Assembly: GCA_025455015.1 (NCBI GenBank)
Contig: JALONI010000004.1
Location: 62,001 to 126,000, forward strand
Source of the DNA: Cyclobacteriaceae bacterium
GTDB taxonomy: Bacteria > Bacteroidota > Bacteroidia > Cytophagales > Cyclobacteriaceae
Direction: 5' to 3'
DNA length: 64,000 nt
Shown: positions 14,519 through 22,548 of the stretch, one piece after another
Layout: every line of letters begins with the position of its first letter
How positions within the stretch are numbered: position 1 is the stretch's first letter
Position numbers and translations under genes: made by a program
Notes under the pieces: model-generated
The model's input: the letters and a program-made list of their open reading frames with translations, nothing else
What the model was told of the DNA's origin: nothing
The model's database searches: none

Positions 14519-14950
14519 TCAATAGGTAAATCTGAAACTCAAACCCGTAATTACAAAGGTAACCGCCAGCAGCGTGGTGGCCAGTATATGCAGTGCCACG
14601 CTCGAAAGTTTTCCGCGCCTTACCTGAGGTAGTACCATCCAGCGAGCGTGCACTGCTAACAACACGGTACCCAGCAACAGGCCGAACTTAATCCATAACA
14701 GGCGGTGGTGGGGCGAGTGCATCGCCAACCAGTCGTCTACGGGTATATACCGCGAGGCCATCCACAGACCCGTTACCACTTGCAAAAGAAAAGCCGGAAT
14801 GCCCACGCGTTCATAGTATTTCTCAAACTCGAGGATAGGGCCCGTGCTTTTTGTGCGCAGTGCCATCGGCAGCCATGCCAGAGACAAGATTAGGTGTCCA
14901 CCCACCCATATCGCAGCGCCCAGCACATGAATTAATACCAACCACTTCAT
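14519..14950 (-). CDS. CopD-like four-helix membrane protein in the nos operon
   Basis: This 143-residue protein has four membrane segments. The first contains LVLIHVLGAAIWVGGHL with the conserved His and Gly of the CopD/copper-resistance D family; the third contains WIKFGLLLGTVLLAVHARW. CopD proteins are linked to copper uptake or to heme-type electron transfer across the inner membrane. The position directly after nosY with a 4-bp ATGA overlap suggests it supports copper supply or electron flow to NosZ. The family assignment is fair, the role is inferred from context. Confidence 0.75.
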   Translation of the reverse strand: MKWLVLIHVLGAAIWVGGHLILSLAWLPMALRTKSTGPILEFEKYYERVGIPAFLLQVVTGLWMASRYIPVDDWLAMHSPHHRLLWIKFGLLLGTVLLAVHARWMVLPQVRRGKLSSVALHILATTLLAVTFVITGLSFRFTY

Positions 14951-15714
14951 AGATCTTTTACAGCAAACAGCCTATATGCCGCGAACAGCGGCAGCGCAAT
15001 CCAAATCAGGAGCACCCCGGCTGAGAATACGAGGCCGAGTATGCTTCCAAAAAACTGTTGGTAAAATGCCCCGGTATATCCCATCAAGGCGGAAATATCC
15101 AGTTGCAACAGCAGAATAATGCGGGCCAGGTCAACGGGATTCATGGCGATGAGTACCAGCGTAATTTTCTCCAGCGGGTAGTCGCTGAAGGTATACACCA
15201 CCCATAGCAGGAGACCGTCATAGATCAGCGCAAAGTATATCCAGAAAAGCAAAGCCAAGCCAATGGCCCGGGCCTTGTCAGGGGTGAGTACGGCCGCCAA
15301 AAAGGCCAATGACACAAACACGAGCGTGAGCAATAAGCCAGACAAGAGCAGCGCCACCCCGGCAGCGCCTCCGCCAAACAGCATCACGGGCAGGCCCACC
15401 CCCACACCGAAGGCGGTGGCTAGCGAGGAAGCCACTCCCACATATTGGCTGAGGAAAACAACCTTGCGCGGGATTGGCTGAACCAGCATTAGTTCCATGA
15501 ACTCGTAGGAGTTGAAATAATGGATAGTGGAAAACACGATGCTGACCAGAGGCACCACCAGCAGTACCACGTTCATTAAACTCAAAATGACCTTGCCCGC
15601 ATCAGCATCAAATTGAAAAAGGACTGATGTAAGTACCCACAAAAAAAGTGTATAGGCGAGAATAAAGCGGTCGCGCAGCAAATCGTAGAAAACATATTTT
15701 AGGAGGCGGCTCAT
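14947..15714 (-). CDS. nosY: NosY-type ABC transporter permease
   Basis: The 255-residue membrane protein has about six hydrophobic segments and the ABC-2 permease layout of NosY, starting with a cytoplasmic MSRLLKYVFYDLLRDRF. With NosF and NosD it forms the NosDFY transporter that delivers sulfur or otherwise matures the CuZ centre of NosZ. The start codon overlaps nosF by 4 bp (ATGA), so translation is coupled. Middle motifs YFNSYEFMELMLVQPIPR match NosY proteins. Length is close to the family norm of about 275. Confidence 0.9.
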   Translation of the reverse strand: MSRLLKYVFYDLLRDRFILAYTLFLWVLTSVLFQFDADAGKVILSLMNVVLLVVPLVSIVFSTIHYFNSYEFMELMLVQPIPRKVVFLSQYVGVASSLATAFGVGVGLPVMLFGGGAAGVALLLSGLLLTLVFVSLAFLAAVLTPDKARAIGLALLFWIYFALIYDGLLLWVVYTFSDYPLEKITLVLIAMNPVDLARIILLLQLDISALMGYTGAFYQQFFGSILGLVFSAGVLLIWIALPLFAAYRLFAVKDL

Positions 15715-16442
15715 GCGGCAGGTAGTGGTTGCGCGGCTTGTTGCGCGCGTAACATATGGGCAATGGCGCGGCTCAAGCGCATCTCACCCGTGTCTTGCAT
15801 TAGTGTGGCAACCCTGTTTTGGTATCGCACGTACCCTTCGTGCAGGTACACGATGTCCGTGATCAATTCCTCGAGGTCGCTCAAGATGTGGCTCGTAATC
15901 ACAACAAGTTTTCCGTTTTCTTTTGCCCAGGCGATTTTTTCTTTCAACGCTTCGGAGGCGATGGGATCTAATCCAGCGGTGGGTTCGTCCAATATCAAGA
16001 TGGGCGGAGAAAACAGAAAAGCGAGGGCGGCACTTACTTTCTGGCGTGTACCACCTGAAAGCGTGCGCATGCGCTTGTTAGCCATGGCATCCAGGCGGAA
16101 GGCGCGGAGCAAATCTTCGTCAACATGCGTTACGTCAGGACGAATTGCCTTCATCATGTTGATGACCTGCCCAATGGTCATGTTGTCAGGGTAGCGCCCG
16201 ATTTGCGGCATATACCCGATTTTTTTTCGATAGACCTCCTGGTTTTTTATTACCTGGCCATCAACGTGAATGGTGCCCGCATCGGGAATGGCCAGCCCCA
16301 GGATGCACTTGATCAGGGTGGTTTTGCCGGAGCCGTTGGGGCCGATTAAGCCATAGCTGCTGCCCGCCCGCCATTCCAGTTGGATGTTGCGCAGTACCGG
16401 TAGTTTGCCAAAGTTTTTACTGATGTTTTGGAGGCAGATCAT
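15711..16442 (-). CDS. nosF: NosF-type ABC transporter ATP-binding protein
   Basis: The 243-residue ATPase has Walker A GPNGSGKTT (about residues 34-42), signature LSGGTRQKVSAAL (about 129-141), Walker B PILILDEPTAGLDP (about 150-163) and the H-loop in VVITSHILSDLEEL. It powers the NosDFY complex at the inner membrane, required for CuZ assembly in nitrous oxide reductase. It overlaps nosD upstream by 26 bp and nosY downstream by 4 bp. The last about 40 residues (MRLSRAIAHMLRAQ) are divergent, as is common. Confidence 0.93.
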   Translation of the reverse strand: MICLQNISKNFGKLPVLRNIQLEWRAGSSYGLIGPNGSGKTTLIKCILGLAIPDAGTIHVDGQVIKNQEVYRKKIGYMPQIGRYPDNMTIGQVINMMKAIRPDVTHVDEDLLRAFRLDAMANKRMRTLSGGTRQKVSAALAFLFSPPILILDEPTAGLDPIASEALKEKIAWAKENGKLVVITSHILSDLEELITDIVYLHEGYVRYQNRVATLMQDTGEMRLSRAIAHMLRAQQAAQPLPAA

Positions 16443-17664
16443 AGGGCTTCATCGCAGGCGTTGTGTCTTTCAGGTTTTCGGGTGTGATAGCCGGGGCAGC
16501 CCGCTCGGCTTTGTCGAGCAGTAGGACCAGAAAACTGCGCCACAACAAGACGGCCGTTGGCATGCGGTCAATCAGCGTACCGTATAGGCTCACCGGCCGG
16601 TAGGGTATGTCACCCACGCCATCCCGTGTCAGGTCGTACCCCTCGTAGCGATCCCAGTAATTGGATTCAATGCTATTCAACACCAGGCTGCCGTTGGTGA
16701 TGATGTCAAAGGTATTTTGCCGGAAGTTGTTTTGGCGAAAGCGGTTCTCGTCACAACTCGCCTGCAACCGAATGGCATAACCATTAGCCCGGAACTCGTT
16801 TTGGTAAAATTGGTTTCGGCTACTGCCTTCCATAAAGATACCGATCGAGTTTTCGATAAACTCATTGTGGCTGATGTCGCTATCGCGGATGTCTTTCAAC
16901 AACAACCCGTACGCGGAGGAGCCCCAGTTGTGCACAAAGCGGTTATGTGTCATCGTCACGCCCTTCGTGTACATGACCGCCACACCCGCCCCGTTGTTTA
17001 AAAAAGTATTGCCGTGGTAGGTGTCGTCATGCGAAAACATGAAGTGCAGGCCGTAGCGCATATTGCCTTCGCTATGATTTTCCGTTACGAGCGATTGGGT
17101 CACGAATTCAAAGTAGATGCCATCGCGATGACCGTGCACTCGGTTACTCCGCAAGGTAGCATGATGACATTTCCACAGGTGTATGCCGTTACCGATTTGA
17201 TGTTCAGCTGCAGCATCGGAGGTGAGTTGATTTTCTTCTATCAAAATGTGGCTGCTGTTAGCCAGATAGATTCCAAAAAAGCAATTAATAAACGTATTGC
17301 GGTATAGGTGAAGATTGGTCGACTCCAGCACTTTGATGGCAGCTAGGTCTTCAATGCTGGCGATGCCGGTGTTCTGAAACGTCAACCCCGAAATGCTGCC
17401 ACCGGGTGCGTGTACGGTGAATAGTTCATACTTATGATCCCCATCGATGACCGCTTGGCCTTCGCCCCGGATGACGATGCTTTTTTTGATGAGGATGTTG
17501 CCCTCGCGGTATAGGCCAGCGCGTATGAGCACGGTATCGCCAGCCGAAGCCAATGCAATACCCTCGCGGATTTTAGTTACCGTGCCACCCGCGCCCACCA
17601 CAATCGTCTTGGCGTGTGCTATGACCGTCAGTGCAAAGTAGCCCCATATAAAAAATAGGCGCAT
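16417..17664 (-). CDS. nosD: NosD periplasmic beta-helix protein
   Basis: The 415-residue protein has a Sec signal peptide (LFFIWGYFALTVIAHA) and a long right-handed beta-helix of NosD/CASH repeats, visible as recurring N-x-G/H-N-x-F units (HNRFVHNWGSSAYG, HNEFIENSIGIF). NosD works outside the inner membrane with NosFY and NosL in building the copper-sulfur CuZ centre of NosZ. The C-terminal YWDRYEGYDLTRDGVGDIPY is the family's hallmark, followed by a short hydrophobic tail segment. It overlaps nosF by 26 bp and follows nosL by 3 bp. Confidence 0.95.
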   Translation of the reverse strand: MRLFFIWGYFALTVIAHAKTIVVGAGGTVTKIREGIALASAGDTVLIRAGLYREGNILIKKSIVIRGEGQAVIDGDHKYELFTVHAPGGSISGLTFQNTGIASIEDLAAIKVLESTNLHLYRNTFINCFFGIYLANSSHILIEENQLTSDAAAEHQIGNGIHLWKCHHATLRSNRVHGHRDGIYFEFVTQSLVTENHSEGNMRYGLHFMFSHDDTYHGNTFLNNGAGVAVMYTKGVTMTHNRFVHNWGSSAYGLLLKDIRDSDISHNEFIENSIGIFMEGSSRNQFYQNEFRANGYAIRLQASCDENRFRQNNFRQNTFDIITNGSLVLNSIESNYWDRYEGYDLTRDGVGDIPYRPVSLYGTLIDRMPTAVLLWRSFLVLLLDKAERAAPAITPENLKDTTPAMKPYDLPPKHQ

Positions 17665-17667
17665 ATT

Positions 17668-18126
17668 TTACTTGTATTGCGTTAGCACCTCCTGCCAAGT
17701 CAGGTATATGCCGCCCCACTGGGCTTTAAATTTCGTCATGGTGGCCTCATCAGCAAAGGCCGCTATTTCACTGGCCATTGGGCTTCGTATTCGATCTGAC
17801 TTGACATAAAAGGCAGTTTCGGCTTCCAGGAAATGGCCAGGGTTGGCATAGTCGATTACCAACTTGTGTATAAAATCCTCGGTCGGTTCGTAGTCAGCAT
17901 GATAGAAGTGAGCGAGACAGTTTATGTCGTCAAACTTGTACACTTTGCCGCGCTTGGTAACAAGTTCGCCACCAAACTTATAGTCCATAATGGTCATTTT
18001 GCAGAAGTGGCAAGTATCGTTGCCAAACCGGATGGGCTCGGGTTTTACCTGACATGAAGCGACTGCCAGCAGGAGGCTGGCGGTCGCAAGTATTTTGGGT
18101 ATGGCTTCGAGCAGGTTGACTCTCAT
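17668..18126 (-). CDS. nosL: NosL copper chaperone lipoprotein
   Basis: The 152-residue protein has a lipoprotein signal with lipobox LAVASC (Cys about 25). The NosL motif DTCHFCKMTIMDYKFGGEL (about residues 37-55) provides the CxxCxM copper(I) site, and KVYKFDDINCLAHF (about 61-74) is the second conserved block. NosL delivers copper to apo-NosZ in the periplasm. It overlaps the upstream membrane-protein gene by 4 bp and is followed by nosD after 3 bp. Confidence 0.94.
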   Translation of the reverse strand: MRVNLLEAIPKILATASLLLAVASCQVKPEPIRFGNDTCHFCKMTIMDYKFGGELVTKRGKVYKFDDINCLAHFYHADYEPTEDFIHKLVIDYANPGHFLEAETAFYVKSDRIRSPMASEIAAFADEATMTKFKAQWGGIYLTWQEVLTQYK

Positions 18127-18704
18127 GGCTTTTGTTTTCGTATAAAGTGTTCATAAAGCAACGTGGCAGCCACCAAGGCTGTTGCCGTTATAAAAATCCA
18201 GCCCCCGATATCCGGTCCTGAGAACGCGGTGAAATTCAATAGTTGTTTGGTGCCGATCAACGGGGGTTGATACGACATGCCCGGAATAGTAATGGCAGCG
18301 GTAGGGTCAAGGTTGTGGCCGTAGTCGTATCCCCATAAATAGAAATCGACCAGGGCGCTCACGCCCGTGAGTAGGAGCAGCAGCAGGAATGTCCACAGCC
18401 CCATGCGCGTGCCCCACCACGCGGCCACCAAACCGGTGCCAATGATTGCGCCCACGATGTAGATCATGTAGCCGAATTCGGGAAACATGGCTACTTCGAT
18501 GTGTTTCATGCCGATGTAGTGGTTGAGCGCGCTGATGATTTTGACATCGCCCGTAAGAGTATTAATCCAGATTTTCATTTCAAGCCCCTCCGGGTACTGA
18601 GGGGCCCACATCAATATCTGCCAAAGAGGCACAAAATAGGCGCTGACCATCAGCAGTGAAGCGATGGCGATGACACCCCGGGATATGTTGGCAAGTTTTT
18701 TCAC
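18123..18704 (-). CDS. Conserved membrane protein between nosZ and nosL
   Basis: The 193-residue protein has four membrane segments (about residues 10-30, 77-95, 103-123, 164-184) and a distinctive loop after the first: GLEMKIWINTLTGDVKIIS, ALNHYIGMKHIEVAMFPEF. I recognise it as a protein that recurs with clade II nosZ in Bacteroidota, but it has no established function. The conserved His and Met residues in the loop (NHYIGMKH) could bind copper or quinone; that is inference. It follows nosZ after a 76-bp gap with a hairpin and overlaps nosL by 4 bp. NosB of other clade II clusters may be an analogue. Confidence 0.75.
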   Translation of the reverse strand: MKKLANISRGVIAIASLLMVSAYFVPLWQILMWAPQYPEGLEMKIWINTLTGDVKIISALNHYIGMKHIEVAMFPEFGYMIYIVGAIIGTGLVAAWWGTRMGLWTFLLLLLLTGVSALVDFYLWGYDYGHNLDPTAAITIPGMSYQPPLIGTKQLLNFTAFSGPDIGGWIFITATALVAATLLYEHFIRKQKP

Positions 18705-18780: not shown

Positions 18781-20775
18781 TTATCGACTGGCATCTATGG
18801 CCGCGTCTTCGATCTTACCGGTTGAGTATTTTAGGGGTACCGCGCTGCCGGCCGGAGATACGCGGATGTAACCTTGCATTTCCTGGTGCAGGGCTGAACA
18901 GAAGTCGGTACAATAGAATGGAAACACACCGATGTTTAGCGGCTTCCATTTCAAGGTGGCGGTTTCGCCTGGCATAATTAGCAATTCAGCGTTATTGGCA
19001 CCTTTGATGGCAAAGCCATGGGGTACATCCCAGTCTTGCTCCAGGTTGGTGACGTGGAAGTATACGTCATCTCCGAGTTTCACACCTTCGATGTTGTCGG
19101 GCGTTAAGTGCGAGCGGATGGCCGTCATGTATACGTGTACCTGATTACCCTTGCGCTCTACCTTCGCTTGTCCTTCGCCCAAGGCTGCGTAAGGATGCTT
19201 ATTTTCTTCCAGTTTGAATATCTTAACCGACTGGGGCATAATTATGGAAGCCGGTATCGCTTCGGCATAGTGCGGTTCGCCAATGGTTGGAAAGTCGAGG
19301 ATCAGTTTCATCTTGTCGCCAGTGATATCATAGATTTGTGCCGACTGTGTGAGCTCGGGGCCGGTGGGTAAGTATCGGTCTTTCGTGATTTTGTTGTAGG
19401 CAATCACATACTTGCCGTGCGGTTTGCGTGTAGGACCACCGGGTACGCACAGGTGTCCGATGGAGTAATACGTGGGCACTCGATCCAATACCTCCAGCGT
19501 TTTGACGTTCCACTTGACAATTTCTGACGACACAAAAAAGGACGTATAAGCGTTGCCCCGATCATCAAACTCGGTGTGCAGCGGGCCTAATCCCGGCTTC
19601 TTTACTTCGCCATGTAAGGCGGCTTCATATTTAATTACCGGTATGCCTGCAAATTCGCCCTCAAACTCCTTGTTGGCAATGGCTTGCTGGATTTTTGTAA
19701 ATGAAAACACGGGGATAAGTGCGGCCAGCTTTCCACTGCCCACGATGTATTCCCCCGTTGGATCGGTGTCACAGCCGTGGGGCGATTTGGGGCATGGGAT
19801 AAAGAAAATGATGTCCTTTAACTGTGCCGGGTCAAGCTGAAGTACTTCGGTCAGTATTTCTGATGTGGCGGTGTGCGTAGTTTCGTCATAGCGGTTGCGC
19901 GCATAGCGTGCTTTTACTTTTTCACCTTTACCGGCAGCGATGTACTCTTCGGCCTTCTTCCAGTTAACGGCCATAATGAAGTCTTTGTCTTTTTGTGAGG
20001 CATTCACTTCGAGGAGTGTATAGGCCTGTTCGGTATTGTAGCAAGAGAAGAAAAACCAACCGTGCGAAGGGCCCTTACCCGCGCGCGACAAGTCAAAACT
20101 CACACCCGGGGTCTTTAGTTGAAACGCGATATTCATCTTGCCGTCTTTCGGGTCTACCGAAATAAAACTGATATAGCCCTTGAAGTTTTCTTTGAATGAA
20201 CTGATGGGCACATCGGTTTTGTCGCCTATCGGTACACTGAAACGGGTACCGGCTACTACGTACTCCGTATTTTCAGTAATAAAGGGTGAAGAGTGGTTGC
20301 CTCCGCTATTGGGAAGTTCCAGAATTTCGGCTGTGCGAAATGTTTTCAGATCGATGCGGGCCACGCGGGGGGTGTTGTTGGCATTGCCAAAAACCCAACG
20401 GCCGTCATGCTCACCCCGAGTCGTAGAAATAGCCGGGTGGTGGAGATCATCCCACGGTACATACCCGTGTGACGTGTTGAGCATGGCTTTCGTTTCTTCG
20501 CTATAGCCGTAACCTGTGGTTGGGTCTTCTGAAAAAACAGGAATCACCCGAAATAGCCGACCTGACGGCAAACCGTACACGGTCATTTGCCCGCTGAAGC
20601 CGCCCGAGACGAAGTTGTAGAATTCATCATACTTACCCGGGGGTACATAGGCTTTGATGGCGGCATCGGTACCTGAGATCAATGTCGGGGCCTGTGGTTT
20701 GCACATCTGAAACACCGTGACGGCCAGCAGGGCGATGAGTACGGCAAGTGGGGTACGCATTGTGTTCTTATTCAT
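18781..20775 (-). CDS. nosZ: Nitrous oxide reductase, clade II type, lipoprotein-like signal
   Basis: The 664-residue enzyme reduces N2O to N2. After a signal peptide ending VTVFQMC (lipobox-like, Cys about 25) comes the seven-bladed propeller with CuZ histidines in WDDLHHPAIS, SGGNHSSPF, CPKSPHGCDTD, GLGPLHTEF, RKPHGKY and GEPHYAEAI. The C-terminal cupredoxin domain (about 545-650) has the full CuA set: VPHGF, then FYCTDFCSALHQEMQGY. All metal ligands are present, so it should be active. The signal is Sec-type without a twin-arginine, which marks clade II. It overlaps the fasciclin gene by 4 bp. Confidence 0.97.
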   Translation of the reverse strand: MNKNTMRTPLAVLIALLAVTVFQMCKPQAPTLISGTDAAIKAYVPPGKYDEFYNFVSGGFSGQMTVYGLPSGRLFRVIPVFSEDPTTGYGYSEETKAMLNTSHGYVPWDDLHHPAISTTRGEHDGRWVFGNANNTPRVARIDLKTFRTAEILELPNSGGNHSSPFITENTEYVVAGTRFSVPIGDKTDVPISSFKENFKGYISFISVDPKDGKMNIAFQLKTPGVSFDLSRAGKGPSHGWFFFSCYNTEQAYTLLEVNASQKDKDFIMAVNWKKAEEYIAAGKGEKVKARYARNRYDETTHTATSEILTEVLQLDPAQLKDIIFFIPCPKSPHGCDTDPTGEYIVGSGKLAALIPVFSFTKIQQAIANKEFEGEFAGIPVIKYEAALHGEVKKPGLGPLHTEFDDRGNAYTSFFVSSEIVKWNVKTLEVLDRVPTYYSIGHLCVPGGPTRKPHGKYVIAYNKITKDRYLPTGPELTQSAQIYDITGDKMKLILDFPTIGEPHYAEAIPASIIMPQSVKIFKLEENKHPYAALGEGQAKVERKGNQVHVYMTAIRSHLTPDNIEGVKLGDDVYFHVTNLEQDWDVPHGFAIKGANNAELLIMPGETATLKWKPLNIGVFPFYCTDFCSALHQEMQGYIRVSPAGSAVPLKYSTGKIEDAAIDASR

Positions 20776-21338
20776 AATGGAAATTTTAGATTACTTTTTT
20801 CGGGAAGCAGCAGGACAGAATCAATAATGTATACTATGCCGTTAGAGCCGCGGGCCGAGCCAAGCACAGCGGCACCGTTGATGGTGATTTTGCTGTCTTT
20901 CTTCGCCAAGGTGGCATTATCGAGGCTTACCATGTTAATGACCATGCCATCACGAATCATTGTTTCGGTCAGCACCCCTACGTATACGTGGTATTCCAAT
21001 AGGGTACGCAGTTGCTCCTTGTTTTCAGGGTTAGTCAGCATTTCCAGTGTGCCTGCCGGAAGTTTAGCGAAGGCAGCATTGGTTGGGGCAAATACGGTGA
21101 AGGGTCCTGCGTTGGCGAGCACGTCCAAATACTCCGCTGCCCTTAGTGCTGCTACCAATGTGGTATGGTCTGCTGAATTTGCAGCGATCTTCACCAAATC
21201 ATGTTGTGATTCATCGTCTTGCACAGAGGCTTGGCCCTCTTCCTGTGGCAGGTTGGCCACGGTTGTACTTGTTTCGTGCTTTGGTCGCTCACAGCCGCCC
21301 CACGCCAGGCAGGCAATTACGAAGAGAATGGTTTTCAT
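20772..21338 (-). CDS. Fasciclin-domain lipoprotein in the nos operon
   Basis: The 188-residue protein has a lipobox (LAWGGC, Cys about 16), a short polar linker and one FAS1 domain at about residues 48-185: H1 box GPFTVFAPTNAAF and H2-like YIIDSVLLLP. FAS1 domains mediate adhesion or protein contacts. A fasciclin gene next to nosZ recurs in Bacteroidota, which suggests it supports NosZ or its cytochrome at the membrane, but no role is established. It overlaps nosZ by 4 bp and follows the cytochrome gene by 18 bp. Confidence 0.9.
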   Translation of the reverse strand: MKTILFVIACLAWGGCERPKHETSTTVANLPQEEGQASVQDDESQHDLVKIAANSADHTTLVAALRAAEYLDVLANAGPFTVFAPTNAAFAKLPAGTLEMLTNPENKEQLRTLLEYHVYVGVLTETMIRDGMVINMVSLDNATLAKKDSKITINGAAVLGSARGSNGIVYIIDSVLLLPEKSNLKFPL

Positions 21339-21356: not shown

Positions 21357-21827
21357 TTATTTTTCACCGTCATTTTGGCGCATGAACTCAAGAATGTCGC
21401 GTGCATCGCCAATGGACACGTTTTGGTTGGGCATGCGCATTAAGCAGAGCTCCAACAGCTTTTGTGCCTCCGGGTCTTTTTCAAGCATCACATCTACATT
21501 GGTGATCATGTTCATGATCCATTCGGGTTTTCGGTTTTTGGTTACTCCCGCCCAGCCTGGGCCTACCACACGTTGATCATTTAGTTTGTGGCAAGCGGCA
21601 CACTTCATTTCATAAATCGCAATTCCGCGCTTTACACGATCCTGCTCCAATGGGGTATTCAGGGTTACGTTTTTTATGGCGCCAATTCCTTTGGTCGGGT
21701 CCGTCATTACTTCTTCCACCGCGCTTGTCTCGGGTGTTCCGTATTCTTCGGGTTTTTGTTGTTTATCGGGTGCACACGCCCCCAGCCACAATAAAATGGC
21801 GCAATAGATGACTATGATTCGTTTCAT
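21357..21827 (-). CDS. Monoheme cytochrome c lipoprotein, first gene of the nos operon
   Basis: The 156-residue protein has a lipoprotein signal (LLWLGAC, Cys about 18) and a single class I cytochrome c domain. The heme motif is KCAACHK (about residues 75-81) and the likely sixth ligand is in LMRMPNQN (about 131-138). It should sit on the periplasmic face and pass electrons, most plausibly to the CuA centre of NosZ, since no other donor is encoded in the operon. Being the first gene, its 5' region carries the operon's control sites. Confidence 0.93.
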   Translation of the reverse strand: MKRIIVIYCAILLWLGACAPDKQQKPEEYGTPETSAVEEVMTDPTKGIGAIKNVTLNTPLEQDRVKRGIAIYEMKCAACHKLNDQRVVGPGWAGVTKNRKPEWIMNMITNVDVMLEKDPEAQKLLELCLMRMPNQNVSIGDARDILEFMRQNDGEK

Positions 21828-21859
21828 GGTTTTTGAATCGAGTTTCGTGTTTGATGACT

Positions 21860-21867
21860 CGAAAGTA
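21860..21867 (-). promoter_or_regulatory. Predicted -7 element of the nos operon
   Basis: On the minus strand the sequence is TACTTTCG, matching TAnnTTTG at all but one position. It implies a start near 21855, about 28 bases before the cytochrome ATG. There is no TTG -33 element at the normal spacing, as expected for an activator-dependent promoter. Confidence 0.5.
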
Positions 21868-21887
21868 CCTGCTTCGGCACTGTTGGC

Positions 21888-21905
21888 TTATGATTCGGAT
21901 CATAA
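21888..21905. promoter_or_regulatory. Crp/Fnr-type operator of the nos operon
   Basis: TTATGATTCGGATCATAA is a perfect 7+7 bp palindrome with a 4-base centre. Its core TGAT-N4-ATCA equals the Fnr/Dnr consensus core. Its centre (21896.5) is about 41 bases upstream of the start predicted from the TACTTTCG box, the classic class II activator spacing. The Crp/Fnr gene starts just beyond, at 22548. Confidence 0.75.
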
Positions 21906-21948
21906 AAACCGTATGATATTTATCAACTTTTTTGCGCGGCCCCGGCCG

Positions 21949-22548
21949 TCAAATCCTCACTTTGCCATTGACGATTTGGAGCCGTCCGGCAGCTTCCATT
22001 TTTTTAATATACCGAATCACCGTCTCAACTCGCAGGCCCGTCATATCTGCTAAAACCTGTCGGGTATAAGGGATTTCCACTTTCCCATTCGCGAGTGGCA
22101 GCATCCTTTTTAGATGGTTGAGTAACATACTGAGCCGATGCTCGGGATCATGAGACGATATTTCTGAAAGCATCATGCTTTTGTATCCGAGGCGTTGACA
22201 AAGAACCTGGTCAAACTTGATATGAATGTCGAAGTGATTTCGTAAGAGATCGAAAAACGATTCTTTTGGTATTTTCATCACTTCGCCATCCGTTAACGCA
22301 TAGGCCGTGGCAGGGTATGTTCCGCCACAAAATAGCGGAGGCTCCCCAAACGAATCGCCTACACCAAAAACACCTTGTATGAATTCGCGCCCGGCTTCAC
22401 TGCCCGTGACCATTTTTACCATGCCGCTTTGAAGTTGAAAGAAGAAAGCGGGCTTATCCCCTTCACGAAACAGACTTTCCGTTTTTCGAAAGCAGGCAAT
22501 TTGCGCGCCATAGCGGGCGCCCAATGCTTTGGGAATCAGTGCAGCCAT
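21949..22548 (-). CDS. Crp/Fnr-family transcription regulator, likely controls nos genes
   Basis: The 199-residue protein has an N-terminal cyclic-nucleotide-binding fold (about residues 15-115; FREGDKPAFFFQLQSGMVKM, GDSFGEPPLF) and a C-terminal winged helix (TRQVLADMTGLRVETVIRYI). The recognition helix VETVIR keeps the Glu and Arg that read TGA in Fnr, but has Ile where Fnr has Ser, which fits an operator with ATGAT instead of TTGAT half-sites. The four N-terminal cysteines of Fnr are absent, so it does not hold an Fnr 4Fe-4S cluster; an NO-sensing Dnr-like role is possible. It sits directly upstream of the nos operon on the same strand. Confidence 0.88.
   Translation of the reverse strand: MAALIPKALGARYGAQIACFRKTESLFREGDKPAFFFQLQSGMVKMVTGSEAGREFIQGVFGVGDSFGEPPLFCGGTYPATAYALTDGEVMKIPKESFFDLLRNHFDIHIKFDQVLCQRLGYKSMMLSEISSHDPEHRLSMLLNHLKRMLPLANGKVEIPYTRQVLADMTGLRVETVIRYIKKMEAAGRLQIVNGKVRI

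Follow-up and report, generated by a model that had tools for sequence, protein, structure and literature searches.

The perfect palindrome TTATGATTCGGATCATAA, which lies 5' of a cytochrome c-fasciclin-nosZ operon in the window (hereafter, the whole stretch of 64,000 nucleotides analysed, from a Cyclobacteriaceae bacterium), co-occurs in related genomes with the gene for a Crp/Fnr-type regulator and stands at a conserved distance from a promoter box. We consider it probable, taking the reading as a whole, that the palindrome serves as operator in a class II promoter, dependent on an activator, of the operon that comprises the cytochrome c, fasciclin, nosZ and NosLDFY genes, controlled by a Dnr-like regulator with NO as the most likely signal, and with a second site for tuning. 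A homodimer of the neighbouring regulator would bind the palindrome through its LRVETVIR segment, about 41.5 bp before the start of transcription; once bound, it would replace the missing -33 element and recruit the sigmaA RNA polymerase to the -7 box TACTTTCG. The regulator would be Dnr-like in role, sensing NO, most likely, perhaps via haem on a near-invariant His109, and the weaker site, 23 bp upstream, would tune the nos promoter specifically. One part of this reading taken separately, the pairing of regulator and site together with the class II placement, is highly probable from the sequence comparisons. The features concerned, in the order in which they run on the minus strand, are:

21949-22548, minus strand: Crp/Fnr-type regulator of 199 aa without a Cys cluster, the probable activator at the site (from domains, conservation and a structural model)
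22012-22029, minus strand: recognition-helix codons for VETVIR, residues 174-179 (position computed from the translation)
21911-21928, minus strand: weaker palindrome AGTTGATAAATATCATAC, with 8 of 8 positions of the TGAT-N4-ATCA core; centre 21919.5, about -64.5, 23 bp upstream of the main site
21888-21905, no strand assigned: main putative regulator site (arms TTATGAT and ATCATAA, spacer TCGG), a perfect palindrome; centre 21896.5, about -41.5
21860-21867, minus strand: -7 box TACTTTCG, TAnnTTTG type, 5 of 6 positions, starting 21 nt after the end of the main site
21855, minus strand: predicted transcription start, placed from the position of the box
21357-21827, minus strand: cytochrome c, 156 aa, first gene of the nos operon (PF00034)
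20772-21338, minus strand: fasciclin-domain protein (PF02469)
18781-20775, minus strand: NosZ, Sec-dependent nitrous oxide reductase (TIGR04246, 950 bits)
18123-18704, minus strand: 193-aa protein, conserved after nosZ, with no family match (from domain searches and the loci of relatives)
17668-18126, minus strand: NosL (PF05573)
16417-17664, minus strand: NosD (TIGR04247)
15711-16442, minus strand: NosF-type ABC ATPase (ABC family matches; named from operon position)
14947-15714, minus strand: NosY-type ABC permease (PF12679; named from operon position)

The Sec-dependent type of NosZ is the one that we take to be called clade II. The fasciclin gene lies between those for cytochrome c and NosZ in the window, and in some relatives site-bearing fasciclin genes are found apart from the cytochrome gene. 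In ten nosZ operons with neither regulator nor site (L055-L058 and L060-L065), the cytochrome c-matching ORF before nosZ codes for 600-634 aa, against about 160 elsewhere, and the electron-donor gene is therefore of a different architecture there.

The initial annotation had described a perfect 7+7 palindrome with a 4-nt spacer, and the sequence bears this out. When TTATGAT-N4-ATCATAA was searched for at zero mismatches, TTATGATTCGGATCATAA was the sole match both in the window and in the source genome (a 3.42-Mb draft in 154 contigs, of 96% completeness); the genome-wide search that had been proposed thus returned one perfect copy, before the nos operon. Eight other genomic places matched with one or two mismatches, seven of them inside predicted ORFs and one (C4:26265) between ORFs. 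Because perfect 7+4+7 palindromes of any sequence are not rare (seven in the window), the case for the site rests on conservation and not on palindromy.

Conservation was assessed in a family survey of 148 genomes, 81 of which have NosZ; 80 nosZ genomes were read. An orthologue of the regulator (117 bits or more, the next proteins scoring 85 or less) was found in 34 of the 148 genomes, including 27 with NosZ. With up to two mismatches allowed, 23 of these 27 have a site in the roughly 2 kb upstream of nosZ, against 3 of the 53 genomes without an orthologue, one of which (L122) had no usable upstream DNA (Fisher's test, 5e-13); at no more than one mismatch the figures were 16/27 and 3/53. Related genomes are not independent, and kinship was corrected through a single table, collapsed by genus and regulator status, in which the site accompanied 18 of 21 entries with the regulator and 3 of 36 without. 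Five scrambled palindromes each gave 0/27 with the regulator and 0-2/53 without it. The exceptions run both ways: four of the 27 regulator genomes have no site with two or fewer mismatches near nosZ, and three genomes (G005, G093 and G112) have a site without a detected orthologue. G094, a nosZ-bearing genome of the window's genus, has neither regulator nor site. Some of the 23 have their site in front of the regulator gene or a RIC gene upstream of the cytochrome gene (G033; G063 and G120), and a few of the two-mismatch matches, for example in G090 and G027, may not be promoter sites. Between -300 and +60 of the first start codon of the cytochrome gene, 17 of 77 operons have a site with at most one mismatch, compared with 0.02 in shuffles (three loci with no cytochrome gene as anchor were left out). 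The match between regulator and site, put forward earlier as an inference, therefore has comparative support.

A second sample, from the named collection, consisted of the best 80 of at least 476 regulator-bearing places, picked with two peptide patterns; conservation within those patterns is biased because the loci were selected by them, and both LRVETVIR and His109 fall outside them. These best 80 of at least 476 places belong mainly to Cyclobacteriaceae and other Cytophagales, and also to Flavobacteriaceae, Pedobacter and a few Chlorobi-type records. They hold 79 intergenic sites at up to two mismatches, against 2.2 per scrambled palindrome of the same composition. A ranking free of any assumed motif (6-base arms, spacers of 0-14, the two best arms kept per spacer) gave TATGAT-N4-ATCATA as the commonest perfect intergenic palindrome, in 38 of the same 80 loci; the palindromes ranked just below it are the same one shifted or changed at one base, and the first that is unrelated was found in six. 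Close relatives of the regulator also occur in records titled Armatimonadetes and Acidobacteria (L270 and L297), by transfer or in mis-binned contigs; over the first 25 residues, L270 and the Chlorobiota record L266 differ at one.

Counting the 12-base core across whole genomes was tried as a regulon marker by itself and rejected: there were 75 places in the 34 regulator genomes and 61 in 34 nosZ genomes without an orthologue (forward sums). The reversed pattern (12 and 10 places, respectively) is a poor control because it contains TAG, which is likely avoided in genes; intergenic position, gene identity and scrambled palindromes were used instead.

The neighbouring protein is assigned to the Crp/Fnr superfamily by its domains (PF00027, 75.5 bits; PF13545, 37.2 bits), and its AlphaFold2 (AF2) model (pLDDT 93) is consistent with this, Crp/Fnr chains ranking top in fold comparison. 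That comparison does not tell CRP, FNR and CooA apart, and no row labelled DNR occurs among the 50 matches listed in either comparison, which excludes nothing. The VETVIR recognition helix noted in the initial annotation is indeed found at residues 174-179. It is present in 29 of 30 orthologues, and in a wider set Val174 and Glu175 are each found in 81/81 sequences and Arg179 in 80/81; the whole LRVETVIR segment and His109 are nearly invariant. The N-terminal Cys cluster of Fnr, whose lack had likewise been noted, is missing from the window protein, and any Cys at all occurs within the first 30 aligned positions in 6 of 81 sequences. His109 (80/81) lies near the start of a long helix, 106-132, in the model (pLDDT 93); it is a candidate haem ligand, and may instead be structural.

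Several residues separate the protein from other members of the superfamily. Pro79 (80/81) occupies what is presumably the place of Arg82 in the CRP phosphate cassette, which does not fit a cAMP-sensing CRP, and neither does Val174, found where CRP has Arg at position 180. Glu175 stands at CRP position 181, and none of the Pro, Ser or Gln of HcpR2 is found there. FNR has Ser where the regulator has Ile178. The initial annotation called this Ile consistent with ATGAT half-sites; the half-sites are compatible with the proposal, but the effect of the residue is not isolated, and Ile178 may contribute to their reading. Bases 3 and 6 of the box reportedly vary with the residues at CRP positions 180 and 181, so that it is the residue at 180, here Val, that is said to correlate with the base in question (PMC1274295). 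With Val at 180 and Glu at 181, base 3 of the box is A, and neither T nor G.

Among the known systems with which the regulator may be compared, DNR of Pseudomonas, with its beta-proteobacterial regulon, is also of the Crp/Fnr type, has a regulon linked to nos and nor, and has an N4 palindrome with a TGAT/ATCA core (PMC1274295). The box here, however, is (T/A)TATGAT-N4-ATCATA(A/T), whereas that of DNR is CTTGAT-N4-ATCAAG (PMC1274295); the helix LRVETVIR and the TAnnTTTG promoter also set the present system apart. The base before TGAT is A, and not the T of the DNR box, in 93% of 95 sites, which were picked with A in the consensus, and the assumption-free ranking agrees. The DNR chain 3dkw is the top solved chain by family profile, with 87 bits against 83.5 for CRP, a lead of about 4 bits, and other chains lead when the single sequence is used. 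FNR is alike in fold, N4 palindrome and, as predicted here, class II geometry, but the regulator here has no N-terminal Cys cluster, and a separate FNR-like paralogue is present in the genome (see below). The NnrR box, TTGCG-N4-CGCAA (PMC1274295), differs from the TATGAT-N4-ATCATA found here. Nss of Wolinella and NssR of Campylobacter are Crp/Fnr proteins for which control of clade II nosZ has been proposed and, for NssR, that of nitrosative-stress globins as well (PMC11539149; PMC1274295); compared by description, they belong instead to Campylobacterota, with boxes TTGA-N6-TCAA and TTAAC-N4-GTTAA (PMC11539149; PMC1274295). HcpR of Bacteroides and Porphyromonas is a Crp/Fnr regulator of nitrosative stress within Bacteroidota (PMC6955866), but HcpR2 has a GTAAC-N4-GTTAC motif and Pro at CRP position 181 (PMC1274295), where the regulator here has Glu. 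By all signs the regulator works like Dnr, as an FNR-family protein without a Cys cluster that would act on nos through an N4 palindrome. Because the DNR box does not fit and DNR leads by profile but not by single sequence, it is best filed as a Dnr-like regulator and regulon with its own box, in a Bacteroidota promoter context.

Genes with the site before them in relatives are that of the regulator itself, nos, and those for RIC/YtfE (TIGR03652, 252 bits), truncated globins and a NorB-type reductase (PF22085 and COX1). It is also found before a blue-copper protein beside a NorB-type gene (in Pedobacter), before lone fasciclin proteins and before a 600-aa protein of no known family. Two single cases, an NO-inducible flavohaemoprotein (PRK13289, 508 bits; in G010, which has no NosZ hit) and hemN (in G066), weigh less because they have no box at the usual distance (see also below). 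RIC, NorB-type reductases and truncated globins are standard NO-response genes. Since the site-bearing genes of relatives are on the whole what an NO regulon contains, NO is the likeliest signal, read from gene content; an NO-type signal had been suggested at the outset, and the sites before RIC/YtfE, truncated globin and NorB-type genes lend it support.

Three groups of genes in these loci deserve mention in their own right. A protein of roughly 600 aa, with no Pfam or NCBIfam family (L182:7160-8980, in the same genome as L267), has homologues in 10 of the best 80 of at least 476 loci; it has its own site in L245, L262 and L267, is beside a NorB-type gene in L245 and L267, and is a candidate for a new NO- or denitrification-linked protein. 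In Flavobacteriaceae, a 96-aa protein with no Pfam family (two members tested) is encoded beside the regulator with a site before it (L247:7637-7927, L288:8721-9011, L291 and L293). Genes for an adenosylcobalamin-type ribonucleotide reductase adjoin the regulator at L182:4200-6050, L193:3354-5204, L215:2617-5169 and L217:1353-3935; NrdJ is over the cut-off in L215 and L217, the L182 protein is RTPR-like and below the cut-off, and RTPR homologues occur in 13 of the best 80 of at least 476 loci. In some relatives the reductase gene lies between the regulator and RIC. An NO-type regulator thus has as its neighbour a route to DNA precursors that needs no oxygen.

The alternative that survives best keeps the same site and regulator and makes the signal low oxygen, N2O or redox state, the NO genes being needed under the same conditions; we regard it as a real, if minority, possibility. 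The search of the source genome found no nirK, no qNor (with a qNor query) and no RIC over the cut-off, and for the nirS model an 18-bit match alone; nirK was over the cut-off in 2 of the 27 regulator genomes. Genes linked to anaerobiosis have the site or adjoin the regulator (hemN in one relative, the B12-dependent ribonucleotide reductase in several), and N2O has been reported as a possible signal for the Crp/Fnr proteins of Wolinella (PMC11539149). Against this, the Cys cluster is lacking, and the NO-response genes named above carry the site. With no nirK, nirS or qNor found in its genome, the source bacterium is probably a non-denitrifying N2O reducer, and NO, if it is the signal, would therefore come from neighbours. 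Across genomes, nir was found in 2/27 with the regulator and 12/53 without (P 0.12) and qNor in 5/27 and 13/53 (P 0.78), with no significant link for either, and having the regulator is therefore no mark of a denitrifier; for nirS, G052 alone was counted (371 bits), other matches over the Pfam cut-off being partial or marginal.

The site might also belong to another protein. The source genome has five Crp/Fnr-type HTH matches, four of them over the cut-off, and one is an FNR-like paralogue (of the L302 type, helix TATETVIR) with N-terminal Cys at positions 10, 13 and 38, which shares the ETVIR of the regulator; were this oxygen sensor the one to read the site, the neighbouring regulator would be incidental. 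A TATGAT-N4-ATCATA site beside an FNR-like gene in G086 (L319; L167) speaks for this. However, among nosZ genomes with an FNR-like protein (200 bits or more) and without an orthologue of the regulator, none of 29 has the site upstream of nosZ, whereas it is present in 16 of 18 with the regulator and without the FNR-like protein, in 7 of 9 with both and in 3 of 24 with neither, which makes the paralogue a very unlikely owner of the site. In G086 itself the spacer is constant across several (A/T)TATGAT-TTAT-ATCATAT sites (L167:578, L206:2454 and L210:2467), one of which separates the FNR-like gene (L319) from a UspA-like gene, labelled by eye; these sites may belong to a second regulon, of FNR type, whose box is almost identical.

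As to the promoter, the sigmaA boxes of Flavobacterium psychrophilum are reported at -12 to -5 (PMC9723704). When the box TACTTTCG is taken as -12 to -5 on this basis, +1 falls at 21855 and the centre of the palindrome at -41.5. The initial annotation had described the box as lacking a -33 TTG, and the 20 nt that separate it from the site, GCCAACAGTGCCGAAGCAGG, contain none. A set of 95 non-redundant promoters with the site was then scored for TAnnTTTG at five or more of six positions. Counted from the site, the box began at 21 nt in 44, at 22 nt in 18 and at 20 nt in one, which makes 63 of the 95, against 1.6 boxes on average, and four at most, in other three-offset windows of the same promoters. 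By target, a box at 20-22 nt was found for cytochrome c in 20/29, RIC in 12/13, the regulator in 9/13, truncated globins in 3/3, fasciclin in 2/5, the NorB-type reductase in 1/3, the 600-aa protein in 1/3 and unnamed targets in 15/26, counts that are diluted because they combine both sides of divergent gene pairs; 32 of the 95, including two of the three NorB-type promoters, have no such box. No base is conserved between site and box in the 95 promoters, and hence no -33 TTG. A scan for sigma70-type promoters, which is uninformative for this phylum, found 10 against 9.7 expected.

The class II placement suggested earlier has comparative support, the gap of 21-22 nt from site to box being kept across many promoters, with the start itself predicted. 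The spacing is that of class II activation, and we infer activation and not repression. A repressor lying over -50 to -33 would block RNA polymerase until the signal released it, and the site does overlap the -33 region; the lack of a conserved -33 TTG, and a site-to-box distance of mostly 21-22 nt, as expected of an activator that touches the polymerase, make repression quite improbable. That TTATGATTCGGATCATAA is a chance palindrome without regulatory role in an AT-rich gap is hardly credible, for although the window has seven perfect 7+4+7 palindromes of any sequence, the comparative data on conservation, co-occurrence and spacing contradict it.

The operator of a class II promoter remains our preferred reading, and to it belongs the weaker palindrome AGTTGATAAATATCATAC, which the initial annotation did not mention. 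Of 36 nos promoters, 18 have a TGAT-N4-ATCA core (7 of 8 positions) whose centre lies 22-23 bp upstream of that of the main site, and none of 67 promoters of other targets has one; in nos promoters, core matches at 6 of 8 positions averaged 0.36 per offset at other distances, with two at most. In the 18 upstream sites, TGAT is preceded by C in 10 cases and by A in two, against A in 93% of the 95 main sites. The upstream palindrome could be a poorer site that takes a second dimer of the regulator, or it could be occupied by another Crp/Fnr protein. A more doubtful proposal is that of a two-site, two-input switch in a bacterium unable to make NO: the site at -41.5 would be read by the Dnr-like NO sensor and that at -64.5 by the second dimer or a second Crp/Fnr protein, for example an oxygen sensor, so that NO leaked by neighbours under low oxygen would give early warning of N2O, itself a difficult molecule to sense directly.

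Among the carriers of clade II nosZ, the Bacteroidota are a major group. The open-access literature covered gave no account of the control of nosZ in this phylum and no description of the box or the regulator, which is weak evidence of novelty, most subscription papers being outside that scope. The defined box, regulator and promoter geometry make the control of nosZ testable in named strains, and regulator and nosZ occur together in Chryseolinea serpens DSM 24574 and Pedobacter nyackensis DSM 19625. If NO is indeed the signal in a bacterium without a nitrite reductase, then the activity of neighbouring denitrifiers would be the cue for N2O consumption, which would bear on when soils and sludge act as N2O sinks.
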